This document shows positions 11,121 to 58,416 of a stretch of DNA of 64,000 nt, piece after piece. Position 1 is the stretch's first letter, and the number at the start of each line of letters is the position of its first letter. The notes under the pieces were generated by a model. The model had not been told where the DNA came from. It searched no databases and saw nothing but the letters and a program-made list of their open reading frames with translations. The position numbers and the translations under genes were made by a program. Origin of the DNA: Strobilurus pachycystidiatus. Its lineage: Eukaryota > Basidiomycota > Agaricomycetes > Agaricales > Physalacriaceae. The stretch covers positions 62,001 to 126,000 of the forward strand of contig JAHLMK010000028.1 of assembly GCA_019915135.1 (NCBI GenBank). Direction: 5' to 3'.

Positions 11121-14100
11121 GCAAGTATGTTGACGAAGCCTTGACGCTCTTCTTAGCACTGCCCTGTCGGCTCTTTTCCCGTAATGCCATGACTGCCTGA
11201 TCAGTTTCCTGCCAGTTCCGAGCGCGGTCCAGGATGAGAAGATACTTATCGGGAACAGTGATACGTTCGTCGGTGATTGTGTCAGGCTTTCCACGCCCCT
11301 CACGTCGAACCACAACAACCATCCAAGCAGGCGTCTTCACCCCAGAAACATCCATATCAACCCAGCGAATGGGGCGAACATACTTCCCAATATCCTCACC
11401 TCGAAAGACAAGCCAACAGTGGCCGTCAGCGGGCTTTCGTCCTGGATGTTTCGGTTGGACTTGACTGGGGACTAGAGCTTGGGCTTGCCGTTTGCCCCCC
11501 ACAATACGATATACGCCGACTGCCCCGCTACCAAGAGTGATTTGCTGAATCGTCGTCAGATGCTCTGCCGACCGCTGATTCTTGGAAGGAGCCAGTTTTT
11601 TTTTCACTTCTATACCTGTCGTGTAGACGACGATCTTCAAGTCCCGCAAATAAGGCTGCATGCACCACGCGACTTTGTCGTTGTAGAGAAGGACGGGACG
11701 GCCTAGCTCGTCGCGGTCTTGATTGTCGATAGTCCAAGGAGCTCCCTCGTTCGGCTGTGCGAGTGCTTTGGAGGAGACCGGAGGGTGCACAAAGTAGTTG
11801 TCCGAAGCTTTTGGCTGGCAGGGTGCGCTGAGCTTCACATAGTAAGAAAGCCCAAGCTCCGAATCGTAATATACTTGCTTGCCACGAAATCCACTTTTGT
11901 GGTGGAGGGCGCTGAGGGGATGAACAATTCGAAGAGGCCAGAGTGTCCTATGTACCACTGTCAGTTTGAGTTGGTCTGGTGAAAGGAGAAGCAGTCCTCA
12001 CTCAGGATCTCGGACAAAACTATAACAAAACCACTTCTCCAAAAGTCCTTCCTGAGCTCGCAGGATATCGAAGCGAACGAGTATCTTCAACCCACTGTCG
12101 GTCTTGTCGTCTCGGATGACATCTTCCACTGTCCCTTGTCGTCCTTTGTGCTCGCCCGTGATCAGAACGACGGGGCGGCGACACCAAGGAACGGTGCCAC
12201 TGTACGTCATTTCTGGACGAAAGGTGACTTTGCCGGTGAACAGGCCCTTTTCCGCATCGTACTCTAGCTCGTCATGAAGACGGTTGTAAGGACGACTGGG
12301 TCCTGGGACAGAGGGCGGCGGCGCGAGAGTGAAAACCGGGCGCCCTGTTAAACGCTCAGTGGGTTGGGTGTTGCTCGTGATGTGAACGCAATTGTTCTTG
12401 TGAACTCTGACGACCTGTCGTAACGTTAGTCGACTTTTGAAGGGGGTACGTTGGGCACATACTTGCGGTGAAATCCCCTCGGGATCCTCGCCGATCCAGT
12501 AGATGAGAATGGTGATATGTCGTTCCTGGCGACGTCGCCTAGCCGAAGGTTCTCCTTCAGAGGTAGATTTCCCAGGTATCACCCAACCGTGTGACATCTT
12601 CGTACTGCCGTTCCATATTCCGACCTCCTGCCCCACCTCGAACACACGGACCAAATGCCATCTCTCAATCTCCACGGGGTTCATCCCCTTATCGATGGGC
12701 TGCACCGTGACGGTGTGCGATAGGGTAGTCCTCCCATCCATTTCGTGCAACGCGTGTTGAGTTGACAAGACCCTTCCCTTGAAGCCGTTTCGAAGATCCT
12801 CTACTATTTCCCCAGCTTCAAAGTTCCCATTTTCAGCCGGAGGTAGTAAGGAGAGGGCGCGTCTGACCTGAGGATCCTCGCAGTGTATGAGTTGATCGTG
12901 GATGTGTGGAGGTGAGGAGATGGCGATTGAGATGTGTGTACGCCGGACCTGGATCAAGGCAAGATCCTCCACGAAGACCGTGCTTCCCATTTCCTGGTAA
13001 CGAACTAGACCGTGTTTTGCTTCACTGACGGTCAGTTTGGAGCGAATATCTAGGTGGAGAAGGCGGGGTGGATGTCGAGTACCAGGTGCAGGTGGTATCG
13101 GACGAGGCAAAGTTGTCCAGTTTAGGTCGGTGGGGCGTTTGCCGGATTGAGCTTGCTGTTCCTCTTCCCCAGAAGGGGCGCTCTCGCCTATATGTGCTCG
13201 CTGCCAGCGGAAACTTATCCGTGGTACAATCTTGACCGCGCACCAGACGTTCTTCGAGTCCTTTTGGACCCAACCAATATCACCATCGTATTTTCCTCCT
13301 CTAATAGTGACCCAGCATCTGGTAAACGTCTCTCGTACACCTCGGCTGCTGTGCCATGCGCGTAAACGCTCAGTGGGAGATTGAAGGGGCTGCATGGTTC
13401 GGAGAGAAAGGCCGTATTTCGTATGGCCAAGATCGTCGACAAGGAGTTGAATCAAGGAGTTCATCGTACCCCTAGTGGCAATGTAGATAGAAGGCTGGGA
13501 GGTGGTTTTCGGGCTTGGCCATATATCAATTATGTCGTCTTCAGGACGAGAATCGTGATGAAGGCGACTGGCGATGATCTGAGCAAGAACGTTACGATCC
13601 TCTTGCCTGTCTGTCGAATCTTCTGTCGGTCCATTATGATCCTCTTCGTGTTGGTAGGCCAAAGTAGCGGCATGCTGCCAATTACGATCTCGTCTTCGGG
13701 AAGGTGGGGAATGACGTTTGAATTCCAAGTTGTCCTTGATTAGTTTGGAGACCTCGACTCCGGAGGCTCGATACTGTTGATGGAGTCAATGCTGTTCTTG
13801 TATGAAAGTATTGTAACGTACTCGACAATTTATTCGCCAAATCGTTATATCCTCGTCGGCCGCATCGTAAACACGTGAATGAGGAGCGAACTCGTCCTCA
13901 TCCTCATCATCGTCATGCACCGGGCCTACGGTAGGGCGTGCAGATTCGTTACGTCCATTGTCGTCGTCGCGTATAATAGAAGTCGGGGCTAGAGACTCCA
14001 GCCAAGCATGAAAATGGTTTTCCGATGTCCGCTCCAAGGCAGCAAGTGTCTTCGGGGTAAGCCTGTGAGAGCTGGGGGAGTTGCTTTCGAAATCATGGTC

Positions 14101-14729: not shown

Positions 14730-14813
14730 AAGACCTTTGGTGTAATGGTAACACGCCTAGACCCATATCTCAATGTTTCTAGGAGTCTCAGGTTCGAATC
14801 CTGGTGTGGTCTT
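14730..14813 (+). tRNA. tRNA-like sequence with intact A and B boxes, anticodon unclear
   Basis: A perfect A box (TGGTGTAATGG, 14738-14748) and B box (GGTTCGAATCC, 14791-14801) are present, and a run of seven T at 14838-14844 can end Pol III transcription. The ends pair (AAGACC with GGTCTT), the D arm GTGT/ACAC and T arm TCAGG/CCTGG pair, and CCTAG/CTAGG pairs as an anticodon stem. The loop is 18 bases, which fits a 7-base loop plus an 11-base intron, but no U is at the position before any anticodon and the acceptor stem is offset. It may be a decayed tRNA gene or the head of a SINE. Confidence 0.4.
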
Positions 14814-24984: not shown

Positions 24985-25110
24985 GGGAAAGAATCACGTG
25001 TATACGCAGCACCCAGGCAAGTCGGCAGCGAAACGTTAAATCCGAATTCTCGGATTTAACGTCCCCGGCAGAATTTGGTTACGCTGCCGGGAGCACGTGG
25101 CCTTTTTCGC
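24985..25110 (+). repeat. Palindrome-centred repeat, inverted partner at 50775-50905
   Basis: The core is a palindrome with perfect 13-base arms, ACGTTAAATCCGA (25033-25045) and TCGGATTTAACGT (25050-25062), split by ATTC. Around it, about 120 bases match the reverse complement of 50775-50905 with scattered mismatches, including GGGAAA, ATCACGTG, AAGTCGGCAGCGAA and CGCTGCCG. This copy lies between the divergent chromodomain gene (24772) and the start of the array-1 gene (25271). Confidence 0.85.
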
Positions 25111-25270: not shown

Positions 25271-26164
25271 ATGCCAAATTCGTCGTTCGATTTCAGTTCC
25301 GCAATCTCTGTACCCGGCGGACATTGTGGAAACGAAGACCATCAGGCTATTGCAAGCGAACGTCTTGTCGATGGATCCTTGGCGATGGAATCGCGGACGC
25401 GTTTTGTGGTATACAAAAAGGTATGTAGCACCTGCTCGTTATGCAAAACTACAACTTATTCAAATTGAAGGCCGGTGATGCAGCTGGGAACACGCCTAAT
25501 ACATTCTTTATGAACCTTCGAAGCCGGAATTACTCTCAGGAGCAGCGAGGGTGCGTGGTGGTCTTCGAGGTGGTATGATAATCGTACTAACTACGCGAAA
25601 CACTAACTTATGAACCGACAGCGGTAAAACCGTCCGGGGAGGCCTTGTACATGCCCAACGCATCATGATCGCACGCGAGGGTCCCAAACCGGTTCTCTTT
25701 TTTTTTCCGGGAGCAACATAGCGGCGTGGCGTTTCTCGAGGAGGTATGACAGTTATGATAATTACCCGAAAGCAAAACTTATGAACCGACAGTGATAACG
25801 ACGTTCTGGGACACTTTGTATATGCCCAACGCATCGCACATGAACTTCCTGCACGGCTTCTTGTCTCGGCGGTCCTCGACGATGTATAATAAGTAACCGA
25901 ATCTCCAGCTCATGAACCGAAAGCGAAACAGGTGTTTCAATATGCTTCGTGTATGCTCAACGTACTGGGCATGAAGGCTCGAGAAACCGGCTCTCCTCCC
26001 AGGAGCAGCGAGGTAGCGTGGCGACCTTCCAGGAGGTATGAGAATCACACTCACTACGCGAAACTCTGACTTATGGACTGACATCGATAAAGCTTGTCCT
26101 GGCGCCTCAGTACATGCCCAATGCTTCTGACGTGAAGGCCCAGAAAATTTCTTCTTCCCAGGAG
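25271..26164 (+). CDS. 5' part of the array-1 gene: leader exon and degenerate exon-intron units
   Basis: An ATG at 25271 opens MPNSSFDFSSAISVPGG, which runs to a GTATGT donor near 25422. After an intron ending TTGAAG the next exon reads AGDAAGNTPNTFFMNLRSRN and YSQEQRG. From there to 26164 the sequence consists of about four weakly similar units of 150-170 bp. Each has an exon-like part starting near GGAGCAGCGAGG, a GTATGA donor, and an intron-like part ending ATGAACCGACAG. They contain the element TGCCCAACGCATC, which corresponds to GTGCCCAACGACG of the main array. The units no longer share an open frame. I read this as the old, diverged edge of the array and the 5' end of a gene made of repeated exons. 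It is uncertain whether it still makes a protein. Confidence 0.4.
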
Positions 26165-29100
26165 CAGCGGATGGCTCCGAAGGTGCCCAACGACGTCTAA
26201 GTGAACCTCCGATGGCGTTGTCAATCTCAACGCGAGATTTAGCGTATCGTTTGTGGCGTTGACAGGAAGGTAAGTTTGTGCTCGAATGTTTGGAATTCAG
26301 TAACTCATAAACGATTCAATTAGATTGGCTACGGATGGCTCCGGAGGTGCCCAACGACGTCTCAGTGAACCTCCGAGGTCGAATTTGAAAGGCAGAAAAG
26401 CGTATCACTCTGGGCGTGTACGGAAAGGTAAGTTTGTGTTCGAATCTTTCGAATTCTATAACTCATGAACGAGTCAAGCTACGGATGGCTCTGGAGGTGC
26501 CCAACGACGTCTCAGTGAACCTCCGATGTCGATCTCAACGCGAGACTTAGCGTATCGTTTGTGGCGTTGACGGGAAGGTGAGTTTGTGGTCGAATGTTTG
26601 GAATTCAGTAACTCATAAACGATTCAATTAGATTGGCTACGGATGGCTCCGGAGGTGCCCAACGACGTCTAAGTGAACCTCCGATGTCGATCTCAACGGG
26701 AGATTTAGCGTATTCTTTGTGGCGTTGACGGGAAGGTAAGTTTGTGCTCGAATGTTTGGAATTCAGTAACTCATAAGCGATTCAATTAGATTGGCTACGG
26801 AAGGCTCCGGAGGTGCCCAACGACGTCTAAGTGAACCTCCGATGTCGATCTCAACGGGAGATTTAGCGTATCGTTTGTGGCGTTGACGGGAAGGTAAGTT
26901 TGTGCTCGAATGTTTGGAATTCAGTAACTCATAAGCGATTCAATTAGATTGGCTACGGATGGCTCCGGAGGTGCCCAACGACGTCTAAGTGAACCTCCGA
27001 TGTCGATCTCAACGGGAGATTTAGCGTATCGTTTGTGGCGTTGACGGGAAGGTAAGTTTGTGCTCGAATGTTTGGATTTCAGTAACTCATAAACGATTCA
27101 ATTAGATTGGCTACGGATGGCTCTGGAGGTGCCCAACGACGTCTCAGTGAACCTCCGAGGTCGAATTTGAAAGGCAGAAAAGCGTATCACTCTGGGCGTG
27201 TACGGAAAGGTAAGTTTGTGTTCGAATCTTTCGAATTCTATAACTCATGAACGAGTCAAGCTACGGATGGCTCTGGAGGTGCCCAACGACGTCTCAGTGA
27301 ACCTCCGATGTCGATCTCAACGCGAGATTTAGCGTATCGTTTGTGGCGTTGACGGGAAGGTAAGTTTGTGCTCGAATGTTTGGAATTCAGTAACTCATAA
27401 ACGATTCAATTAGATTGGCTACGGATGGCTCTGGAGGTGCCCAACGACGTCTCAGTGAACCTCCGAGGTCGAATTTGAAAGGCAGAAAAGCGTATCACTC
27501 TGGGCGTGTACGGAAAGGTAAGTTTGTGTTCGAATCTTTCGAATTCTATAACTCATGAACGAGTCAAGCTACGGATGGCTCTGGAGGTGCCCAACGACGT
27601 CTCAGTGAACCTCCGATGTCGATCTCAACGCGAGATTTAGCGTATCGTTTGTGGCGTTGACAGGAAGGTAAGTTTGTGCTCGAATGTTTGGAATTCAGTA
27701 ACTCATAAACGATTCAATTAGATTGGCTACGGATGGCTCTGGAGGTGCCCAACGACGTCTCAGTGAACCTCCGAGGTCGAATTTGAAAGGCAGAAAAGCG
27801 TATCACTCTGGGCGTGTACGGAAAGGTAAGTTTGTGTTCGAATCTTTCGAATTCTATAACTCATGAACGAGTCAAGCTACGGATGGCTCTGGAGGTGCCC
27901 AACGACGTCTCAGTGAACCTCCGATGTCGATCTCAACGGGAGATTTAGCGTATCGTTTGTGGCGTTGACGGGAAGGTAAGTTTGTGCTCGAATGTTTGGA
28001 TTTCAGTAACTCATAAACGATTCAATTAGATTGGCTACGGATGGCTCTGGAGGTGCCCAACGACGTCTCAGTGAACCTCCGAGGTCGAATTTGAAAGGCA
28101 GAAAAGCGTATCACTCTGGGCGTGTACGGAAAGGTAAGTTTGTGTTCGAATCTTTCGAATTCTATAACTCATGAACGAGTCAAGCTACGGATGGCTCTGG
28201 AGGTGCCCAACGACGTCTCAGTGAACCTCCGATGTCGATCTCAACGCGAGACTTAGCGTATCGTTTGTGGCGTTGACGGGAAGGTGAGTTTGTGGTCGAA
28301 TGTTTGGAATTCAGTAACTCATAAACGATTCAATTAGATTGGCTACGGATGGCTCCGGAGGTGCCCAACGACGTCTAAGTGAACCTCCGATGTCGATCTC
28401 AACGGGAGATTTAGCGTATTCTTTGTGGCGTTGACGGGAAGGTAAGTTTGTGCTCGAATGTTTGGAATTCAGTAACTCATAAGCGATTCAATTAGATTGG
28501 CTACGGAAGGCTCCGGAGGTGCCCAACGACGTCTAAGTGAACCTCCGATGTCGATCTCAACGGGAGATTTAGCGTATCGTTTGTGGCGTTGACGGGAAGG
28601 TAAGTTTGTGCTCGAATGTTTGGAATTCAGTAACTCATAAGCGATTCAATTAGATTGGCTACGGATGGCTCCGGAGGTGCCCAACGACGTCTAAGTGAAC
28701 CTCCGATGTCGATCTCAACGGGAGATTTAGCGTATCGTTTGTGGCGTTGACGGGAAGGTAAGTTTGTGCTCGAATGTTTGGATTTCAGTAACTCATAAAC
28801 GATTCAATTAGATTGGCTACGGATGGCTCTGGAGGTGCCCAACGACGTCTCAGTGAACCTCCGAGGTCGAATTTGAAAGGAAGAAAAGCGTATCACTCTG
28901 GGCGTGTACGGAAAGGTAAGTTTGTGTTCGAATCTTTCGAATTCTATAACTCATGAACGAGTCAAGCTACGGATGGCTCTGGAGGTGCCCAACGACGTCT
29001 CAGTGAACCTCCGATGTTGATCTCAACGCGAGATTTAGCGTATCGTTTGTGGCGTTGACGGGAAGGTAAGTTTGTGCTCGAATGTTTGGAATTCAGTAAC

Positions 29101-32100
29101 TCATAAGCGATTCAATTAGATTGGCTACGGATGGCTCCGGAGGTGCCCAACGACGTCTAAGTGAACCTCCGATGTCGATCTCAACGGGAGATTTAGCGTA
29201 TCGTTTGTGGCGTTGACGGGAAGGTAAGTTTGTGCTCGAATGTTTGGAATTCAGTAACTCATAAACGATTCAATTAGATTGGCTACGGATGGCTCCGGAG
29301 GTGCCCAACGACGTCTCAGTGAACCTCCGATGTCGATCTCAACGGGAGATTTAGCGTATCGTTTGTGGCGTTGACGGGAATGTAAGTTTGTGTTCGAATC
29401 TTTCGAATTCTATAACTCATGAACGAGTCAAGCTACGGATGGCTCTGGAGGTGCCCAACGACGTCTCTGTGAACCTCCGATGTCGATCTCAACGGGAGAT
29501 TTAGCGTATCGTTTGTGGCGTTGACGGGAAGGTAAGTTTGTGCTCGAATGTTTGGAATTCAGTAACTCATAAGCGATTCAATTAGATTGGCTATGGATGG
29601 CTCCGGAGGTGCCCAACGACGTCTAAGTGAACCTCCGATGTCGATCTCAACGGGAGATTTAGCGTATCGTTTGTGGCGTTGACGGGAAGGTAAGTTTGTG
29701 CTCGAATGTTTGGAATTCAGTAACTCATAAACGATTCAATTAGATTGGCTACGGATGGCTCCGGAGGTGCCCAACGACGTCTCAGTGAACCTCCGAGGTC
29801 GAATTTGAAAGGCAGAAAAGCGTATCACTCTGGGCGTGTACGGAAAGGTAAGTTTGTGTTCGAATCTTTCGAATTCTATAACTCATGAACGAGTCAAGCT
29901 ACGGATGGCTCCGGAGGTGCCCAACGACGTCTAAGTGAACCTCCGATGTCGATCTCAACGCGAGACTTAGCGTATCGTTTGTGGCGTTGACGGGAAGGTA
30001 AGTTTGTGCTCGAATGTTTGGAATTCAGTAACTCATAAACGATTCAATTAGATTGGCTACGGATGGCTCTGGAGGTGCCCAACGACGTCTCAGTGAACCT
30101 CCGAGGTCGAATTTGAAAGGAAGAAAAGCGTATCACTCTGGGCGTGTACGGAAAGGTAAGTTTGTGTTCGAATCTTTCGAATTCTATAACTCATGAACGA
30201 GTCAAGCTACGGATGGCTCTGGAGGTGCCCAACGACGTCTCAGTGAACCTCCGATGTCGATCTCAACGGGAGATTTAGCGTATCGTTTGTGGCGTTGACG
30301 GGAAGGTAAGTTTGTGCTCGAATGTTTGGAATTCAGTAACTCATAAACGATTCAATTAGATTGGCTACGGATGGCTCCGGAGGTGCCCAACGACGTCTAA
30401 GTGAACCTCCGATGTCGATCTCAACGGGAGATTTAGCGTATCGTTTGTGGCGTTGACGGGAAGGTAAGTTTGTGCTCGAATGTTTGGATTTCAGTAACTC
30501 ATAAACGATTCAATTAGATTGGCTACGGATGGCTCTGGAGGTGCCCAACGACGTCTCAGTGAACCTCCGAGGTCGAATTTGAAAGGCAGAAAAGCGTATC
30601 ACTCTGGGCGTGTACGGAAAGGTAAGTTTGTGTTCGAATCTTTCGAATTCTATAACTCATGAACGAGTCAAGCTACGGATGGCTCTGGAGGTGCCCAACG
30701 ACGTCTCAGTGAACCTCCGATGTCGATCTCAACGGGAGACTTAGCGTATCGTTTGTGGCGTTGACGGGAAGGTGAGTTTGTGCTCGAATGTTTGGAATTC
30801 AGTAACTCATAAACGATTCAATTAGATTGGCTACGGATGGCTCCGGAGGTGCCCAACGACGTCTCAGTGAACCTCCGATGTCGATCTCAACGCGAGATTT
30901 AGCGTATCGTTTGTGGCGTTGACGGGAAGGTAAGTTTGTGCTCGAATGTTTGGAATTCAGTAACTCATAAACGATTCAATTAGATTGGCTACGGATGGCT
31001 CCGGAGGTGCCCAACGACGTCTCAGTGAACCTCCGATGTCGATCTCAACGCGAGATTTAGCGTATCGTTTGTGGCGTTGACGGGAAGGTAAGTTTGTGCT
31101 CGAATGTTTGGATTTCAGTAACTCATAAACGATTCAATTAGATTGGCTACGGATGGCTCTGGAGGTGCCCAACGACGTCTCAGTGAACCTCCGAGGTCGA
31201 ATTTGAAAGGAAGAAAAGCGTATCACTCTGGGCGTGTACGGAAAGGTAAGTTTGTGTTCGAATCTTTCGAATTCTATAACTCATGAACGAGTCAAGCTAC
31301 GGATGGCTCTGGAGGTGCTCAACGACGTCTCAGTGAACCTCCGATGTCGATCTCAACGCGAGATTTAGCGTATCGTTTGTGGCGTTGACGGGAAGGTAAG
31401 TTTGTGCTCGAATGTTTGGAATTCAGTAACTCATAAACGATTCAATTAGATTGGCTACGGATGGCTCCGGAGGTGCCCAACGACGTCTAAGTGAACCTCC
31501 GATGTCGATCTCAACGGGAGATTTAGCGTATCGTTTGTGGCGTTGACGGGAAGGTAAGTTTGTGCTCGAATGTTTGGATTTCAGTAACTCATAAGCGATT
31601 CAATTAGATTGGCTACGGATGGCTCTGGAGGTGCCCAACGACGTCTCAGTGAACCTCCGAGGTCGAATTTGAAAGGAAGAAAAGCGTATCACTCTGGGCG
31701 TGTACGGAAGGGTAAGTTTGTGTTCGAATCTTTCGAATTCTATAACTCATGAACGGGTCAAGCTACGGATGGCTTTGGAGGTGCCCAGCGACGTCTCAGT
31801 GAACCTCCGATGTCGATCTCAACGGGAGATTTAGCGTATCGTTTGTGGCGTTGACGGGAATGTAAGTTTGTGCTCGAATCTTTCGAATTCTATAACTCAT
31901 GAACGGGTCAAGCTACGGATGGCTTTGGAGGTGCCCAGCGACGTCTCAGTGAACCTCCGATGTCGATCTCAACGGGAGATTTAGCGTATCGTTTGTGGCG
32001 TTGACGGGAATGTAAGTTTGTGTTCGAATCTTTCGAATTCTATAACTCATGAACGAGTCAAGCTACGGATGGCTCTGGAGGTGCCCAACGACGTCTCAGT

Positions 32101-34425
32101 GAACCTCCGATGTCGATCTCAACGGGAGATTTAGCGTATCGTTTGTGGCGTTGACGGGAAGGTAAGTTTGTGCTCGAATGTTTGGATTTCAGTAACTCAT
32201 AAGCGATTCAATTAGATTGGCTACGGATGGCTCTGGAGGTGCCCAACGACGTCTCAGTGAACCTCCGAGGTCGAATTTGAAAGGAAGAAAAGCGTATCAC
32301 TCTGGGCGTGTACGGAAAGGTAAGTTTGTGTTCGAATCTTTCGAATTCTATAACTCATGAACGGGTCAAGCTACGGATGGCTTTGGAGGTGCCCAGCGAC
32401 GTCTCAGTGAACCCCCGATGTCGATCTCAACGGGAGATTTAGCGTATCGTTTGTGGCGTTGACGGGAATGTAAGTTTGTGTTCGAATCTTTCGAATTCTA
32501 TAACTCATGAACGAGTCAAGCTACGGATGGCTCTGGAGGTGCCCAACGACGTCTCAGTGAACCTCCGATGTCGATCTCAACGGGAGATTTAGCGTATCGT
32601 TTGTGGCGTTGACGGGAAGGTAAGTTTGTGCTCGAATGTTTGGAATTCAGTAACTCATAAGCGATTCAATTAGATTGGCTACGGATGGCTCCGGAGGTGC
32701 CCAACGACGTCTAAGTGAACCTCCGATGTCGATCTCAACGGGAGATTTAGCGTATCGTTTGTGGCGTTGACGGGAAGGTAAGTTTGTGCTCGAATGTTTG
32801 GATTTCAGTAACTCATAAGCGATTCAATTAGATTGGCTACGGATGGCTCTGGAGGTGCCCAACGACGTCTCAGTGAACCTCCGAGGTCGAATTTGAAAGG
32901 AAGAAAAGCGTATCACTCTGGGCGTGTACGGAAAGGTAAGTTTGTGTTCGAATCTTTCGAATTCTATAACTCATGAACGGGTCAAGCTACGGATGGCTTT
33001 GGAGGTGCCCAGCGACGTCTCAGTGAACCTCCGATGTCGATCTCAACGGGAGATTTAGCGTATCTTTTGTGGCGTTGACAGGAAGGTAAGTTTGTGCTCG
33101 AATGTTTGGAATTCAGTAACTCATGAACGGGTCAAGCTACGGATGGCTTTGGAGGTGCCCAGCGACGTCTCAGTGAACCTCCGATGTCGATCTCAACGGG
33201 AGATTTAGCGTATCGTTTGTGGCGTTGACGGGAATGTAAGTTTGTGTTCGAATCTTTCGAATTCTATAACTCATGAACGAGTCAAGCTACGGATGGCTCC
33301 GGAGGTGCCCAACGACGTCTCAGTGAACCTCCGATGTCGATCTCAACGGGAGATTTAGCGTATCGTTTGTGGCGTTGACGGGAAGGTAAGTTTGTGCTCG
33401 AATGTTTGGAATTCAGTAACTCATAAGCGATTCAATTAGATTGGCTACGGATGGCTCCGGAGGTGCCCAACGACGTCTAAGTGAACCTCCGATGTCGATC
33501 TCAACGGGAGATTTAGCGTATCGTTTGTGGCGTTGACGGGAAGGTAAGTTTGTGCTCGAATGTTTGGATTTCAGTAACTCATAAGCGATTCAATTAGATT
33601 GGCTACGGATGGCTCTGGAGGTGCCCAACGACGTCTCAGTGAACCTCCGAGGTCGAATTTGAAAGGAAGATAAGCGTATCACTCTGGGCGTGTACGGAAA
33701 GGTAAGTTTGTGCTCGAATGTTTGGAATTCAGTAACTCATAAGCGATTCAATTAGATTGGCTACGGATGGCTCCGGAGGTGCCCAACGACGTCTAAGTGA
33801 ACCTCCGATGTCGATCTCAACGGGAGATTTAGCGTATCGTTTGTGGCGTTGACGGGAAGGTAAGTTTGTGCTCGAATGTTTGGAATTCAGTAACTCATAA
33901 ACGATTCAATTAGATTGGCTACGGATGCTCTGGAGGTGCCCAACGACGTCTCAGTGAACCTCCGAGGTCGAATTTGAAAGGAAGAAAAGCGTATCACTCT
34001 GGGCGTGTACGGAAAGGTAAGTTTGTGTTCGAATCTTTCGAATTCTATAACTCATGAACGAGTCAAGCTACGGATGGCTCTGGAGGTGCCCAACGACGTC
34101 TCAGTGAACCTCCGATGTCGATCTCAACGCGAGATTTAGCGTATCGTTTGTGGCGTTGACGGGAAGGTAAGTTTGTGCTCGAATGTTTGGAATTCAGTAA
34201 CTCATAAGCGCTTCAATTAGATTGGCTACGGATGGCTCCGGAGGTGCCCAACGACGTCTAAGTGAACCTCCGATGTCGATCTCAACGGGAGATTTAGCGT
34301 ATCGTTTGTGGCGTTGACGGGAAGGTAAGTTTGTGCTCGAATGTTTGGATTTCAGTAACTCATAAGCGATTCAATTAGATTGGCTACGGATGGCTCTGGA
34401 GGTGCCCAACGACGTGTATGGGACC
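26165..34425 (+). repeat. Array 1: about 54 tandem exon-intron-like units of about 155 bp
   Basis: I count about 54 copies of the core GGTGCCCAACGACGTCT at a mean spacing of about 155 bp. Each unit has an exon-like part (99 or 104 bases) ending GGGAAG or GGAAAG, followed by GTAAGT and an intron-like part of 51 or 54 bases ending GTCAAG or CAATTAG. Two main types alternate. Type II (AATTTGAAAGG... 51-base intron) encodes, when spliced, an open 33-residue repeat starting ATDGSGGAQRRLSEPPRS. Type I (CTCAACGGGAG... 54-base intron) has an in-frame TGA near the exon end and an acceptor that shifts frame. Blocks of many units are themselves repeated: rare variants such as GTGAGTTTGTGGTCG recur about 1708 bp apart (26.58 and 28.29 kb). 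The last unit near 34400 breaks off into unique sequence. Confidence 0.95.
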
Positions 34426-34990
34426 GTCCAAGATCCTTTTTGTAAGGAGAAGCTCCGACTTTGGACAGCGAAAGCGCATGTCTTTGAGCTTCGAGATTGT
34501 CTACTCATACCCCCACCCGCACCCAACCCTGGCCATTCCGGCCCCTATCCCGGAGGAGGGCGAAACTATCGTCCGCGCGTCCCCTTGTCGTGGGCCTCTG
34601 GGCTTATACCCAACTAAGAACGCGTTAAACGTAACGCCAACCTTTTCCAGCCTGGATCAGTAAGTCTCTGCCTGTGCGCTTGCTGTTGGTTGTTCATGTC
34701 TCCATCTTACTAGTTGCGCTCGGCACCATCCATTTGGTAAACATCCATGCCCGAGATAACCATCCTTGGTCAAGAAACTATTCAATTTGGAAACGCAATC
34801 GCCCAAACAACGTTTGTTCTTTCATTCGGTCTGATCACACAACAACCGTCGCAAGGGACAAGTACATTTCCCCTGCATGTTCGTGCAACACTCAACCGAC
34901 CTTCTGGGCCTTGAGGACGCTGCTGTCGACGGCTTACTAGTGCGACGAACTTTCGCATGATTTGACCCGTTCCTACGGTGGGGGCTGCCG
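34426..34990 (+). other. Coding-like sequence after array 1
   Basis: One frame reads SYPHPHPTLAIPAPIPEEGE and RGPLGLYPTKNALNVTP up to a GTAAGT donor at about 34661. A later open piece reads MPEITILGQETIQFGN, then IAQTTFVLSFGLITQQPSQG. These look like exons of the gene that array 1 belongs to, or of a neighbour, but stops follow and I cannot build a full model. Bases 34565-34630 resemble, inverted, part of the small gene near 24.0 kb. Confidence 0.4.
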
Positions 34991-35420
34991 TCACCCCTCC
35001 CCATTGTCCCCGCACCACCCATCGTTCCCGCACCCACCCTCGCTACTTCTCCTCGTCCCCGCACCCACATACATCGTTCCCTCACCCACCCTCGCTACTC
35101 CTACACCCCCTAACTGACCCCTCCCTCCTGCGCCACTCGCCTTCCTCCACCAATCTCACTCTCTCTTTTCTCCCACCGTATCATCCCCGTACCTCACCCA
35201 TTGTCCTCGCACCCACCCACAACGTCCCCGATCCCATCTCCACCGTCTTCGCACCCACCCTCACCGTTCTCACCCTGCTCCCTTTCTCTTTCACCACATC
35301 ACCTCATCATCCTCGCACCTCAAACCTTGTCCCCGCACACACTTCCATCTTCCCTGCACTTATATCCCAACGTCTCCACCCCGCCCCCACTCTCAGAAGT
35401 GTCTGGACACAGCCTCCACC
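34991..35420 (+). repeat. Low-complexity CCCGCACCCACC-rich stretch
   Basis: A degenerate pyrimidine-rich tract made of variants of TCCCGCACCCACCCTCGC. It keeps long frames open by composition alone (34978-35613), rich in Pro, Ser, Thr and His, and I do not accept these as genes. From 35421 to about 36126 I see no supported gene. Confidence 0.75.
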
Positions 35421-36126
35421 CAGCATCTTGCGACATCATCCCTCCGCCGCTCGGCCCGGATCCTTTTTTAGGCAGTGTCGAGCGCGACCGGAATGGTGGA
35501 TGCCGCGCCCTTCACATCTCTTCGCTCGTGGCTTGCATCACTCGCTCGCCAATCTATTCTCTAGCCTTACGCATCGTGATAACTACCGGATGCGTCGTTG
35601 TCGAAGACGCTGAAGGAACGCATTTTCGGTGTCAAACAAAAGGACGCCAACTTTGTCCACATCACGGTGGTGCAACCTTTGGCTGCGTGTTCATGCTGTA
35701 AGTTTTCTCGATGATGATGATCGCGTCGGCGTCATTTGATATAGCTTCTTTCCTTGTAGGTATGGTGATCCGATCGATGACGCATAACTGTGATATACGT
35801 GAATCATCATAACAGGTTTTAGAACTTACTCGGCAGCGTCGAGTAGGTTGTACAACTCCAAAAGAAACGACAAGAGGAACTCATTTTGGGAGGCAAGAGC
35901 AAGATCGGATTTGGTGGAACAGGTAAGTAAATGACAAAAGTGGTGTAAGTGGAGCTAATTAAGTTCGAATAGCAGGTACGTAGAAAGTGGTGTACAATTT
36001 GGGCTCCTCAAGTACAAGAAAGACGTTTACTCGGCATCCGTGGGAGCCGAGAGATGGTAGAGGGTTCTGGAGGTCGAGTGGATTCAGGGTGAGCTATGGT
36101 CGGGTCAGCGGAGGAACTGAATTGAC

Positions 36127-49400: not shown

Positions 49401-51099
<1,699 letters not shown>

Positions 51100-54000
51100 A
51101 TGGATCTCAGCGAACTATTCGACGTCGAGGCTGAGGAGTCGTTTGCAGATGGGGAGGATGAGGTAGATTATGAGGATGACCTGGAAGGTGTGTAAGCACT
51201 GTACGTCGCGCACCAAACCCACTTAGCCTATATCATCTTAGGTTTCATTGACGACGGAGTCAACCATCAACCCTCACAACGTCGAAGCACCCCCTTAGAG
51301 TTGCAATCCCCTTCATCCTCGACTCTTCCTCTCCCACAATCAGACGCCTCTCATGACAGACACGGCTGGGTCGACCATCTTGCGGTGAGATACGCGTCGG
51401 GGCAGGGCCAAACCTTGCAAAGACCTTCTTTGCTGATGGACAACAATGACTGCCCGCTGGAGAAACACCTCCTCGAGCGGGTCTACACAGACCGATATAT
51501 CTATATCGTTCTTCTGTATTGCAAGGTTGGTCCGTTTCTCACAAATCTTCGAATGCGCCTAACTCCCATGTCAAGACCGGCTGCAAACCCGCAGTGTTGT
51601 CACGCCTTGTCGAGGTGAAGAGCTCTCGCGCCGAGTTGAACATCCTCGATGCTGTCCCACACCCACTCATCGACGGTGTCTTCCTTATTCTGGAGCGCGA
51701 CTTCAATCCCCAGATTGGCTACGTGCTCCAGTCAATTCCTGCCTGTGTCCGTTCCAGCTTCTTCCCGGCTGCAATGCGGTCCATCGGCAATCCTCCTCCT
51801 AATCCCCCTCGCTGGCGTCCATTTCGTGTCTATATCTCCGATGTTCCAAACCACGCCGCCTTCCTCAAAGTCATCAAAGCTCCCCCCATCCCCCAACTTA
51901 TTGGCAAGTGGGTTCAGATCCCAACGGGCTTGTACAGAGGGGATGTCGGGCTTGTTACCCGTCAACACGTCTCTGATGAGGATGTTGCCAAGGTAGAGAT
52001 CTTACAGAGGAGGATTGACAGAGCACAGCGCATGGCAGCGGATAAGCGGCAGGAGATTCACGAGCTCATAATGCAGCAACAACCGGAGTTGAGTGCTGCT
52101 CGGGAGAGGACTTTGAGGGAGGTGGAGGCGAAGACGCAGGAGGCGGGCCGGCCGCCTCAGACGGTTGACGCCCGTCGTGCTTGGCTGACGAAGAAGGCAG
52201 CTCTGGACGAGGAGGCGAAGAGGATCAAGGACGCTTATGCTGGAATGGAAGCGGAGGCGGCTCGTGTGTTAGAGGGAAGACAAGCAGAAGTCCGCCAAAT
52301 CGAAAACGACCGCGACGATCTGCAGAATAAGCTTGAAGCTCAGGATCCACTGTGCTCCATTCTCGTTGTCCCTCGTCCCCCAACGTACGATCTCGATCTG
52401 ATGCCGCAGGAAGGAGATATGTTGGAAGAAGGGGTGGGGGAGGCTGTCGGCGAGGCACGGCCCGTAGCAGGGGAGAGAAGGAAGAGGAAGAGGAAGGGCA
52501 CGGAGGGAAAACAAGACGTTCGACGTCCACCTGCCCGACTGGTACCACCGGGAAGTATTGCTCGGCCTGTCAAAGACCAAGAAGGGGACCTCCGCATCTA
52601 CCAAGGCATCTCCCATCGTACCTTCGAGCACGATCTGGAGATCATCAATTTCCGTACCTCCGTCGTGAGACGTCATCTCACCAATCACATCGACCCCTCT
52701 CTCCTCGATACCTTCCTCAGATCGCAGCATCCCACGTTGTCTTCCATGAGCGCCAATCCTAACGCCTCATTCCCTCTTCCCTCCAACTGGTTTCTAACGT
52801 TCGGGGACCTCATGGAGGACTTCATGACGAAACAGTCAGGAACATACACTGCGTCCAGTCATTCATCGGCGACTGGCGTCGAGATCTTCGATGCTAAAGG
52901 ACAGGGCTTCTTCGTTCCTCGGCATCATCTCATGAAGGTGGTGTGCGTCGGCGATTTGGTTGAGTGTCGATTGTCAGACCAGGAGGATGTTGGACCAGGA
53001 TTTGTTGTAGACATCTCGGAACAGGGCGGTCAACGGCATGCAACAGTGATGCTGCATACTCTCACAGTCATCCAAGATTGCGACGACGGTGATGCCGACG
53101 AGAGTGATGTCGATGAGAGGGATCCCGGGTATAGTATTGTGCGTTTCCTATTTTCCGTGCTTCTGAAGAGTGCATGCTCATATCTCGCAGTCCCGCAACG
53201 TACGCGTCAAGCGCAACGTATACGTCAAGGATAGTTACGAAGTCAGCGTACGTTACGATTGTTCAAACTCCCTGAATGCATGCTCATTTCTCGCAGTCCC
53301 GCATCGTACATGTCAACACTCTTCGGGTCCTTGACCAGAGTTGGTACGAGACTCCCGAGGAGACGATGAGTGAACCAGCTCCTTTCCTGGGACACACCGG
53401 ACCAACTCCTTGGCTTGGACGGAAGGTCATGATTGACGCCGAAGGTGATGCACATCACAAAGAGCAAGGCATCGTCAAGGACGTCATTTTGGACAAGGCT
53501 GGAACGATTGCAGTCTCCAAACGCTACAAGTCGGATGCTGTCACTATCGACTACTTCGAGGAAGTTCATGTGAATCCTCAGCCCATCAACGAGTCCGTGT
53601 ACGCCAACGGTATCCGGATTGTAGTCCAGTTTACAATGGTTCGGGACCACGTCGTTCAGGGGACATACTACTACGAGCAGGTCCTTGACTGGCAGTATGT
53701 ACTCTAGTTCTACTTCCCTGAGGTCAGCACTAATATGTTTCGACTCTAGAACTCGTTGGCCACTCCGCATCGCCTGCCCTCTCCGCCGAAATCAGGCCGC
53801 ATTCGAGGGACCGTTGGAGGTGAGACGCTTGGAATGGGGTGCCGATTATCCCAAGTGGGATCCAAAGGACCTTGCCAAACGGTCTGGGTGGTATCGGAGG
53901 GATGAGAAGGAAGGAAAAGCTCTCCAGCGTGCCCAGGAACTGAGGTCGAATGACCCCACACTCCTCTCTCAACCTCCTCAGATACCCCCAAACCCCAAAC

Positions 54001-54647
54001 CTCGCACTCCCCCTCCCGAAGCGGCGAAGGCCCATCACCACTGGCTGATGAGTTCCCGTCTCTTCCACATGCATGTCGAAATCTTCTATAAAGTCATCGA
54101 GACAAAGTCCCAGGCTGGCATACAAAAAAAGAAGCGGAAGATAGACGAGGGCAAAGATGGTATTCGACTTGTCGCCACCCTCACGGCCAATCCCAACGGG
54201 TCAAATCCCCCCTGCGTAGTCGTTCGCTGTGCCGTGCAAACCCTGCTGCCGCAGAAGAAAAGTATTCTCGATGTGAACCTCTGCCAGCCCGTTCACCCAG
54301 GCGGGCGTTTCGGCAATAACTATCGACTGTACGCGTATCGTGGACTACACAAAGGGGAGTTTATGCGTCCAATTGCCCACCAGAAAGATACCGACGGGAA
54401 GCTTATGCATATGGGCTTCTGGGTGGAACCCCAGGTTGACGGAAAGGATTATGCCAAGATGGCCGTCGAGGGCAAACCACAGGGCAAACCAGTTGAGGGC
54501 AAACCACAAACCATCATTTTTCGTGATGAAGATTGCGTACTTATAAAGGACACGAAACACGAAATCACGGAGAATGACCAGTGGGAGAAGATACGGCAGG
54601 CTGGAAAACCAGAGTGGGAGTACATCTGGCAAACTAGAAAGATTTAG
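51100..54647 (+). CDS. NGN-KOW (Spt5-like) protein, 1076-1095 residues
   Basis: Exons 51100-51187, 51242-51525, 51576-53138, an optional 53191-53247, 53297-53694 and 53750-54647 keep one frame (1096 codons with the optional exon). The N-terminus is acidic (MDLSELFDVEAEESFADGED). An NGN-like domain follows (IYIVLLYCK joined to SSRAELNILDAVPHPLIDGV and FLILERDFNPQ), then a KOW motif (GKWVQIPTGLYRGDVGLV) and a long charged helix (about residues 280-380). A basic KRKRKG patch, two more KOW-like stretches and a C-terminal block with GEFMRPIAH complete it. This is the plan of Spt5, which clamps RNA polymerase during elongation, but it is divergent and probably a lineage-specific paralogue. It is related to the 11056-14256 gene, which has the opposite orientation. 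No frame break is visible. Confidence 0.8.
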
Positions 54648-54766: not shown

Positions 54767-57700
54767 ATATCCGCAGTGACGGTTGATTGGAGCAGTAGTC
54801 ATAATCACAGTTTGTTATTGAAGCCCCCGTGGGACGGCAAGATCTTTAGAGGCCTCTCGATACTTCCATCGTTCGGAGTGGGTTTATGTAAGGTGAGCTG
54901 TTGTTCGCTTATAACGAAATCTGTAACTCACGAAGGGTTGAGAGTTGCATTCGTCACGGGTGGTTCCGAAGATGCTTGAATGGTGAATTACTGTATCCGT
55001 CGTGGCGTCGACTGGGGGGTCACTTTGTGTCCGAACTTCGTTCGGGAAGGTAGGGTTCTGTTCGAATACTGCGAACTCTCTGACTCAACAACACTTCAAG
55101 TCGTTCATGCCGCGGATGGCTCTAGGGATGCCCAACGTCACCTAATTGAACGTACAAGGTCGATTCCGGCAGGAGAAAGAGGGTATCATTCTCGAGAAGG
55201 TAGGGTTCTGTTTCAATACTGCGAATTCTCTGACTCAACAACACTTCAAGTCGTATATGCCGCGGATGGCTCCAAGGATGCCCAACGTCACCTCATTGAA
55301 CGTCTTAGGTAGATTCCGCTAGGAGAAAGAGGGTATCACTCTCGGGAAGGTAGGGTTCCGTTCGAATACTGCGAATTCTCTGACTCAACAACACTCCAAG
55401 TCGTTCATGCCGCGGATGGCTCTAGGGATGCCCAACGTCACCTCATTGAACGTCCAAGGTCGATTCCGGCAGGAGAAAGAGGGTATCATTCTCGAGAAGG
55501 TAGGGTTCTGTTTCAATACTGCGAATTCTCTGACTCAACAACACTTCAAGTCGTATATGCCGCGGATGGCTCCAAGGATGCCCAACGTCACCTCATTGAA
55601 CGTCTAAGGTCGATTCCGCTAGGAGAAAGAGGGTATCACTCTCGGGAAGGTAGGGTTCTGTTCGAATACTGCGAATTCTCTGACTCAACAACACTTCAAG
55701 TCGTTCATGCCGCGGATGGCTCTAGGGATGCCCAACGTCACCTAATTGAACGTCCAAGGTCGATTCCGGCAGGAGAAAGAGGGTATCACTCTCGGGAAGG
55801 TAGGGTTCCGTTCGAATACTGCGAATTCTCTGGCTCAACAACACTTCAAGTCGTTCATGCCGCGGATGGCTCTAGGGATGCCCAACGTCACCTCATTGAA
55901 CGTCCAAGGTCGATTCCGGCAGGAGAAAGAGGGTATCACTCTCGGGAAGGTAGGGTTGTGTTCGAATACTGCGAATTCTCTGACTCAACAACACTTCAAG
56001 TCGTATATGCCGCGGATGGCTCCAAGGATGCCCAACGTCACCTCATTGAACGTCTAAGGTCGATTCCGCTAGGAGAAAGAGGGTATCACTCTCGGGAAGG
56101 TAGGGTTCTGTTCGAATACTGCGAATTCTCTGACTCAACAACACTTCAAGTCGTTCATGCCGCGGATGGCTCTAGGGATGCCCAACGTCACCTAATTGAA
56201 CGTCCAAGGTCGATTCCGGCAGGAGAAAGAGGGTATCACTCTCGGGAAGGTAGGGTTCCGTTCGAATACTGCGAATTCTCTGGCTCAACAACACTTCAAG
56301 TCGTTCATGCCGCGGATGGCTCTAGGGATGCCCAACGTCACCTCATTGAACGTCCAAGGTCGATTCCGGCAGGAGAAAGAGGGTATCACTCTCGGGAAGG
56401 TAGGGTTGTGTTCGAATACTGCGAATTCTCTGACTCAACAACACTTCAAGTCGTATATGCCGCGGATGGCTCCAAGGATGCCCAACGTCACCTCATTGAA
56501 CGTCTAAGGTCGATTCCGCTAGGAGAAAGAGGGTATCACTCTCGGGAAGGTAGGGTTGTGTTCGAATACTGCGAATTCTCTGACTCAACAACACTTCAAG
56601 TTGTATATGCCGCGGATGGCTCTAGGGATGCCCAACGACACCTAATTGAACGTCCAAGGTCGACTCCGGCAGGAGAAAGAGGGTATCATTCTCGAGAAGG
56701 TAGGGTTCCGTTCGAATACTGCGAATTCTCTGACTCAACAACACTCCAAGTCGTTCATGCCGCGGATGGCTCTAGGGATGCCCAACGACACCTAATTGAA
56801 CGTCCAAGGTCGATTCCGGCAGGAGAAAGAGGGTATCACTCTCGGGAAGGTAGGGTTCCGTTCGAATACTGCGAATTCTCTGGCTCAACAACACTTCAAG
56901 TCGTTCATGCCGCGGATGGCTCTAGGGATGCCCAACGTCACCTCATTGAACGTCCAAGGTCGATTCCGGCAGGAGAAAGAGGGTATCACTCTCGGGAAGG
57001 TAGGGTTCCGTTCGAATACTGCGAATTCTCTGGCTCAACAACACTTCAAGTCGTTCATGCCGCGGATGGCTCTAGGGATGCCCAACGACACCTAATTGAA
57101 CGTCCAAGGTCGATTCCGGCAGGAGAAAGAGGGTATCATTCTCGAGAAGGTAGGGTTCTGTGTCAATACTGCGAATTCTCTGACTCAACAACACTTCAAG
57201 TCGTATATGCCGCGGATGGCTCCAAGGATGCCCAACGTCACCTCATTGAACGTCTAAGGTCGATTCCGCTAGGAGAAAGAGGGTATCACTCTCGGGAAGG
57301 TAGGGTTCTGTTCGAATACTGCGAATTCTCTGACTCAACAACACTTCAAGTCGTTCATGCCGCGGATGGCTCTAGGGATGCCCAACGTCACCTAATTGAA
57401 CGTCCAAGGTCGATTCCGGCAGGAGAAAGAGGGTATCACTCTCGGGAAGGTAGGGTTCCGTTCGAATACTGCGAATTCTCTGGCTCAACAACACTTCAAG
57501 TCGTTCATGCCGCGGATGGCTCTAGGGATGCCCAACGTCACCTCATTGAACGTCCAAGGTCGATTCCGCTAGGAGAAAGAGGGTATCACTCTCGGGAAGG
57601 TAGGGTTGTGTTCGAATACTGCGAATTCTCTGACTCAACAACACTTCAAGTTGTATATGCCGCGGATGGCTCTAGGGATGCCCAACGACACCTAATTGAA

Positions 57701-58416
57701 CGTCCAAGGTCGACTCCGGCAGGAGAAAGAGGGTATCATTCTCGAGAAGGTAGGGTTCCGTTCGAATACTGCGAATTCTCTGACTCAACAACACTCCAAG
57801 TCGTTCATGCCGCGGATGGCTCTAGGGATGCCCAACGACACCTAATTGAACGTCCAAGGTCGATTCCGGCAGGAGAAAGAGGGTATCATTCTCGAGAAGG
57901 TAGGGTTCTGTGTCAATACTGCGAATTCTCTGACTCAACAACACTTCAAGTTGTATATGCCGCGGATGGCTCTAGGGATGCCCAACGTCACCTCATTGAA
58001 CGTCCAAGGTCGATTCCGCTAGGAGAAAGAGGGTATCACTCTCGGGAAGGTAGGGTTGTGTTCGAATACTGCGAATTCTCTGACTCAACAACACTTCAAG
58101 TTGTATATGCCGCGGATGGCTCTAGGGATGCCCAACGACACCTAATTGAACGTCCAAGGTCGATTCCGGCAGGAGAAAGAGGGTATCATTCTCGAGAAGG
58201 GGGGGTTCCGTTCGAATACTGCGAATTCTCTGACTCAACAACACTTCAAAGTCGTATATGCCGCGGATGGCTCCAAGGATGCCTAACGACACCTAACTGA
58301 ACGTCCAAGGTCGGTTCCGGCAGAAGAAAGATTGACAGAAAGGCTCTCGCCCTACCGGACGAGGTCGTCGTCCGAAAGAGGAAGATAGCGGGATCTGCGC
58401 AGATTGAGTCACCTTA
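54767..58416 (+). CDS. Gene made of about 23 repeated exons (array 2), tentative
   Basis: A leader piece (KPPWDGKIFRGLSILPSF) ends at GTGAGC near 54896, and a diverged unit follows (54946-55049). From 55050 each 150-bp unit splits into a 51-base intron-like part (GTAGGG... CTGAC ...TTCAAG) and a 99-base exon-like part. Spliced, the exons give a 33-residue repeat with the core AADGSRDAQRHLIERPRSI and the end GERGYHSRE. After the last unit the frame can continue as LPDEVVVRKRKIAGSAQIES to a TAG at 58416, with a basic nuclear-localisation-like patch. One unit (55200-55349) has a stop. Because 51 and 99 are both multiples of three, unspliced RNA is open too, giving a 50-residue repeat over most of the array. 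The start codon is not found. Whether it is translated is unknown. Confidence 0.4.
55050..58349 (+). repeat. Array 2: 22 tandem units of exactly 150 bp
   Basis: Units start at 55050 and every 150 bases to 58200 without a single indel; only the last has an extra A. Units fall into a few variants (GTTCATGC or GTATATGC; TCTAGGG or TCCAAGG; GGCAGG or GCTAGG) that recur in blocks, a sign of unequal exchange or gene conversion. The unit aligns with the type II unit of array 1: the 51-base intron parts share TGTTCGAAT and CGAATTCT and about 70% of positions, and the exon parts share GGATGGCTC and TGCCCAACG. Confidence 0.97.

Follow-up and report, generated by a model that had tools for sequence, protein, structure and literature searches.

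What does a tandem array of exon- and intron-like units do when it can be read through almost without a stop codon: does it encode a repeat protein, has it decayed into a satellite, or could it act through RNA? The question is raised by array 2, which occupies positions 55042-58331 (+) of the window (the whole 64,000-nt stretch analyzed here, C28:62001-126000 of a 51.8-Mb genome in 61 contigs). We consider the best explanation, with a probability of roughly 55%, to be that array 2 is one of many tandem non-coding exon-intron arrays that form a family spread over the genome, lie in promoter-linked transcripts and are homogenized by unequal exchange.

Layout, turnover and splice signals

TRF describes array 2 with a period of 150, 21.9 copies and 0% indels. 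A first-pass annotation of the window had reported 22 units in perfect 150-bp register without an indel. The register is exact, with unit starts spaced by 150 from 55046 through 58196, and freedom from indels holds for 21 of the 22 tandem units, but the last (58196-58331) carries a 1-base insertion that breaks the frame. Reading the units also confirmed the proposed division of every full unit into a 51-nt GT..AG part and a 99-nt part, following the pattern GAAG/GTAGGG..CTGAC..CTTCAAG/TCG. By reading and alignment, the first intron-like stretch (GTAGGG..CTGAC..AAG) lies at 55050-55100 (+) and recurs every 150 bp, and the first exon-like stretch, with frame VVHAADGSRDAQRHLIERTRSIPAGERGYHSRE, follows at 55101-55199 (+). 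One or more degenerate units with a GTGAGC 5' site and GTAACTCACGAA, recognized by a profile match, separate the flanking gene from the array (54868-55041, +). Fifteen of 21 units are distinct, eight pairs are identical, and a 593-base exact match occurs at a lag of 450; the absence of indels is therefore expected from recent homogenization. Of the two causes previously offered for it, homogenization stands, and selection on frame is unnecessary as an explanation.

The family comprises 253 profile matches in 21 array loci, with periods of 150 and 158-161 bp. The claimed homology to a second array in the window is borne out: array 1 (26168-34415, +), with about 53 units of 150/158 bp carrying GTAAGT and TAACTCAT, is about 63-64% identical to array 2. 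Diverged units at 25489-26168 (+), relatives of the 159-161 bp D subfamily, lead into array 1, and the tail behind it (34454-34634, +) is common to the regions downstream of arrays at C6, C42, C25 and C28:30.8k. A 9-base exon gap separates the 150-bp unit of array 2 from the 159-bp unit of the C25 array. Short pieces of array tail also occur without a listed array at C10:878107, C10:864492 and C3:2830220. Farther 3' of array 1, the window is pyrimidine rich, with CCCGCACCCA-like low complexity (34978-35700), and the C26 gene has a comparable stretch behind it (L044 5900-6390).

The exon-intron anatomy of the units finds its support across the family. The aligned 5' site begins with GT in 239 of 242 units, a count to be read in light of the collecting profile, which contains GT among its splice motifs, and of the 11 of 253 matches that were gapped there and dropped. 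We counted parsimony changes per column on a tree of 173 distinct units. The core letters (G and T, and the C, T and A of CTnA) underwent 2, 4, 4, 0 and 2 changes compared to a mean of 10.5 in other columns (Mann-Whitney p = 0.0002), and three of the five fall within the 11 slowest columns (p = 0.0034). The slowness persists when the window's units are removed (p = 0.00018) and in the five most diverged loci only (p = 0.00074); within the array 2/L009/L010 lineage alone it is weak (p = 0.033), with none of the five letters among the 11 slowest columns. The slowest of 120 windows is AGGTAAGT, in the profile alignment and the MAFFT alignment alike, but exon windows without a part in splicing are as slow: GATGGCTC, just past the 3' site, ranks 1, and TGCCCAACGA ranks 2-6 of 118-120.

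Individual sites vary among arrays. In 133 of 242 units, a CTnAY branch site was found ahead of the first AG (L009, 1 of 37; L030, 0 of 7), and the AG at the 3' end, whose position shifts among units, is uninformative. Array 2 has GTAGGG in 21 of 22 units, AAG in 22 of 22 and the branch A in 16 of 21. Matches to the consensus CAG/GTAAGT number 6 of 9 in array 2, 7 of 9 in L009/L010, 8 of 9 in array 1 and 6 of 9 in the GTATGT units of the D subfamily; L009, whose 5' site is GTAGGT, also departs from CTnAY. As judged from these alignments, the feature conserved at the family level is the putative splice signal and not the reading frame; the intron reading is supported at that level and is weakest within array 2 itself. 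Array 2 is a recently homogenized member of the family with weak splice sites (GTAGGG, AAG). RNAalifold found no conserved pair over 53 diverse units, and the window's arrays contain no tRNA or known RNA family (Rfam). Elsewhere in the window, at 14732-14812, a weak tRNA match scored 30.2 bits against a cut-off of 29 and was not called by ARAGORN.

Position behind a shared palindrome

A 30-bp palindrome, ACGTTAAATCCGAGAATTCGGATTTAACGT, lies at 50822-50851 (C28:112822-112851) and is a putative bidirectional promoter element. A second copy is found 5' of array 1, at 25033-25062 (C28:87033-87062). With up to 3 mismatches, the palindrome is present at 26 places in the genome (37 rows, many on both strands); the reversed control gave 0. 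It lies within 5 kb on the 5' side of 19 of the 21 array loci, a count that includes non-independent loci, with chance expectation at about 0.0025 per locus; these arrays run in sense behind a promoter-like element, the position expected of a spliced long non-coding RNA. L038 and L043 are the loci without a palindrome in that range. Palindrome and array are separated by 395-456 bp at 11 loci, 777 and 813 bp at two, 2357 bp at one and 4016-4078 bp at five. A same-strand gene intervenes at the five farthest loci, and at five nearer ones a gene lies beyond the palindrome and is directed away from it. We infer from this arrangement that the palindrome is a bidirectional promoter.

Related motifs recur around it. 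CAGGGASAGTCCATGCC, allowing one mismatch, is found at 20 places and 0 times in the reversed control; judged by coordinates, 12 of the 20 are close to array loci. At L054 (C13, about 160-200), the palindrome appeared by eye to be lettered differently yet to be palindromic still, with CAGGGAGAGTCCATG again downstream, as though the palindromic arrangement had been preserved for its own sake; L054, another gene start that bears this motif, lacks an array unit. We also considered whether, across the palindrome from the gene, first exons encode a conserved protein, and rejected this: by eye, the exons that follow the shared CAGGGASAGTCCATG are unlike one another, and some stop early.

Between the palindrome and array 2 lies the flanking gene (51101-54647, +), which has several short introns and is under purifying selection (dN/dS of 0.19-0.35 in 15 pairs from six loci over 1.7 kb compared, a seventh, short copy being left out). 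It serves as a powered control for the codon tests on the arrays below. The gene belongs to no Pfam family and matched no solved structure at E ≤ 0.001. Its identification as an Spt5-like KOW protein was rejected: a KOW-like stretch was seen by eye only, and Pfam KOW was not found in it. Elsewhere in the window, a 576-aa ORF (11998-13728, -) does score for the Pfam KOW motif, at 24.6 bits (cut-off 22.3), and the flanking gene aligns with it weakly (E = 0.009).

The alternative that survives best, a serious one that we nevertheless judge distinctly less probable than our own, is a plain non-coding satellite whose units derive from an exon-intron segment that is now neither transcribed nor spliced, the splice motifs being homogenized relics. 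Array 2 does show the head-to-tail tandem units and homogenization by which satellite DNA is recognized, and the family shares with satellites and minisatellites their change in copy number. The loss of GTAAGT in array 2 (GTAGGG) and in L009 (GTAGGT), the loss of CTnAY in L009, and the equally slow windows that have no part in splicing all agree with relic status. However, GT and C-T-n-A change more slowly than other columns across strongly diverged units, which homogenization within arrays does not predict, and the arrays hold their sense orientation at a fixed distance from the palindrome. It is in this slow splice core and this fixed position that the arrays differ from satellites and minisatellites.

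Codon tests of the open frame

The first-pass annotation favored a protein, with spliced RNA giving a 33-residue repeat and retained introns a 50-residue repeat, possibly under selection on frame. Frame 0, counted from 55046, is open in 20 of the 21 full units, spliced or unspliced alike, the sole in-frame stop being a TAG in unit 2 (55310-55312, +); unspliced frames 1 and 2 contain 21 and 75 stops. (The spliced-frame check cut the join one base late at both ends, which altered one residue per unit and left the stop count unaffected.) The claim that almost every unit is stop-free in both readings stands for 20 of 21 units, but it describes a single shared frame with one TAG: because 51 is divisible by three, the same frame serves both readings, and their openness does not amount to two independent signs. 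Beyond the unit 2 TAG the frame stays open for 995 codons, none of them ATG, and the ATG at 54980 reaches that TAG after 110 codons; a start codon could come from an upstream exon joined by splicing. In 5000 shuffled 150-bp rings of the same composition, at least one of the three forward frames was open in 26% and at least one of six in 46%. Since shuffles are so often open and near-identical units are not independent, the openness of array 2 is weak evidence, and its long open frame is best explained as a by-product of an open, homogenized unit. A long open frame in a homogenized array should in general be treated as poor evidence for a protein.

Codon-position rates, which the annotation had named among its refuting conditions, turned out against a protein. 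The 117 within-array exon changes, drawn from six unit clusters with at least four members (of 43 clusters) in ten arrays, fall 29, 46 and 42 times on positions 1, 2 and 3 of frame 0 (S38:N76:stop3). Between the 43 clusters, the three positions carry 1.17, 1.01 and 1.06 bits, and of the codons with a single difference a fraction of 0.317 is synonymous. Neither within nor between arrays is there a significant synonymous excess. Array 2 itself has 24 variable sites over 21 units. Here, the proposed comparison of synonymous with nonsynonymous changes gave a divided result: the 99-nt part (S8:N7:stop1 against 30% synonymous expected) leans toward the coding reading yet is not significant (p = 0.076), and the 51-nt part gave S2:N6; the border between the parts was set one base late in this count, touching no variable site. 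Over 28 codons, dN/dS between array 2 and seven other unit types ranges from 0.18 to 0.86, the 0.18 being reached with L010b, and all eight types are open in frame 0 across these first 28 codons. Pooled over the eight types, however, pN/pS in frame 0 (0.69) is not below that in the impossible frames (0.71 in frame 2 and 0.52 in the reverse frame, which contains stops).

Across the family, the exon is open in frame 0 in 123 of 240 units tested, more often than in frame 1 (61 of 240) or frame 2 (17 of 240). The share ranges from 20 of 21 in array 2, 9 of 10 in L010, 19 of 21 in L029 and 8 of 8 in L030 to 14 of 53 in array 1, 8 of 37 in L009 and 0 of 8 in L038, and one unit type of array 1 has stops in all three exon frames. 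Because the open share varies so widely by array, frame 0 does not appear to be maintained as coding; it may be an old coding frame that has not been kept as one.

Protein searches agree. A search of 5.8 billion proteins returned 179 candidates, with none matching at E ≤ 0.001, and AlphaFold, run on four units as a single sequence, gave a mean pLDDT of 37.9 with no confident fold. A Pfam DENR_N match to 780 aa of array 2 (89.3 bits) was rejected as an artefact of repetition, in which scores sum over copies: one unit matched 0 families, two scored 25.0 bits and four scored 33.6 bits with one stretch (cut-off 25.3), a growth with unit number that indicates a chance match adding up. Single units and exon peptides of several subfamilies gave nothing in Pfam. 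A resemblance of the units to a kinase catalytic loop, noted by eye, likewise had no Pfam backing at E ≤ 10.

A tandem-repeat protein gene is recognized by synonymous excess, by a start and an unbroken frame, and by relatives or a known domain; array 2 displays none of these. With the TAG in unit 2, the frameshift in unit 22 and the closure of frame 0 in most units of array 1 and L009 weighed against the 20 open units and the low dN/dS with L010b, we regard a repeat protein under frame selection as very unlikely.

A more recent origin of coding is still less probable. In the lineage of array 2, the C25 array and L009, the intron might have lost its splice signals and its stop and become exon, giving a young protein of 50-53 residues per unit; these three arrays have GTAGG at the 5' site and an intron with CTCAACAAC where array 1 has CTCATGAAC with an in-frame TGA. 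Against this, array 2 and the C25 array differ in the 51-nt part by seven amino-acid changes and zero synonymous ones, the long L009 units retain a TGA, and neither an ATG nor a confident fold was found.

Segmental copies and possible effects on RNA

Array loci also multiply as parts of larger segments. Segments at C26, C15, C5 and C11, with 3.8, 2.8, 2.8 and 1.8 D units, respectively, show 97-99.8% identity; they are recent copies, and hence not all array loci are independent. Another group, C6, C42 and C52, has extensive sequence in common (88-99% identity) and may represent alleles or recent duplicates. The near identity of segments of at least 5 kb at C26, C15, C5 and C11, and the abrupt ends of the sequence shared by C26 and C15, would suit arrays carried by a large mobile element as its cargo or tail, with a sequence that matters for movement rather than for RNA, but no terminal inverted repeats were found at the two ends compared, no transposase was seen in the part of the segment read, and KDZ transposases, though numerous, did not adjoin array 2 among the 150 of 249 candidates scored, leaving this idea as improbable as recent exonization. 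The KDZ family has at least 174 matches in the genome (150 of 249 candidates scored) and 0 in 14 control genomes; together with the short introns, this points to a basidiomycete. The L044/L045 segment (C26:24507-36809, about 12 kb) has abrupt ends, is 98-99.8% identical in pieces to C15 and C11 and may be an undescribed large mobile segment. Within it, behind the D array, an ORF with two 39-residue hydrophobic repeats (L045 1854-2105, 117-bp period) looks by eye like a small membrane protein.

A mechanism for the preferred reading, non-coding exon-intron arrays in promoter-linked transcripts, would join the observed tandem amplification, homogenization, segmental copying, slow splice core, sense position behind the palindrome and selected neighbor gene as follows. 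The palindrome would act as a bidirectional promoter, and transcripts on each side would run in sense through units of an exon of about 100 nt and a spliceosomal intron of about 50-60 nt, reaching the array either after about 0.4 kb with nothing between or, where a short gene intervenes, after about 4 kb. Unequal exchange alters copy number, and whole segments are copied elsewhere, as seen in the sequence. Array 2 was homogenized recently and its splice signals have weakened; therefore, a mixture of splicing and retention is likely. Its effect would most likely be on RNA: a chain of weak short introns forming the tail of the transcript from the flanking gene might slow splicing or export, or mark the RNA for decay or spliceosome-coupled RNAi. 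We speculate that poorly spliced array RNA could serve as RNAi bait. The fullest version of this idea, that palindrome-driven transcripts with tails of up to about 50 short introns, under selection on splice signals and not codons, hold up the spliceosome and feed these transcripts and the attached gene family into RNA silencing or decay, is tentative, and we think it unlikely to be right in full.

Several known systems bear comparison. The SNORD116 host gene consists of tandem exon-intron units in a non-coding transcript, with units of about 2 kb whose introns carry snoRNAs; the arrays here share the tandem exon-intron units, but their introns are about 50-60 nt, and the window's arrays have no Rfam match. 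In fission yeast, poorly spliced or retained introns of the centromeric dg/dh non-coding RNAs are reported to help RNAi-dependent heterochromatin (PMC5322907). The likeness lies in repeat-derived non-coding transcripts with poorly spliced introns, which for our arrays are predicted from sequence; in contrast, the fission yeast repeats have one intron per kilobase-size centromeric repeat, compared to up to about 53 here at 150-160 bp in promoter-linked loci. In Cryptococcus, inefficiently spliced transposon-like transcripts are reported to enter siRNA production through SCANR (PMC5851062, citing Dumesic 2013). Poorly spliced transcripts would be the RNAi input in both cases, speculatively so for the arrays, but those of SCANR are ordinary transposon transcripts, and the consulted passages of PMC5851062 describe no purpose-like chain of introns. 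A literature search covering mainly papers outside subscription journals showed no account of arrays like these.

If the arrays are spliced, each transcript would contain dozens of near-identical introns at a spacing of 150-160 nt, and the family would offer a natural series in which the effects of intron number, strength and spacing on fungal splicing, export and silencing could be followed. The copy-number variants (1.8-3.8 units in near-identical segments and 21 to about 53 elsewhere) are ready-made comparisons. At C26, the gene appears by eye to be followed by one single unit, as if amplification came later.
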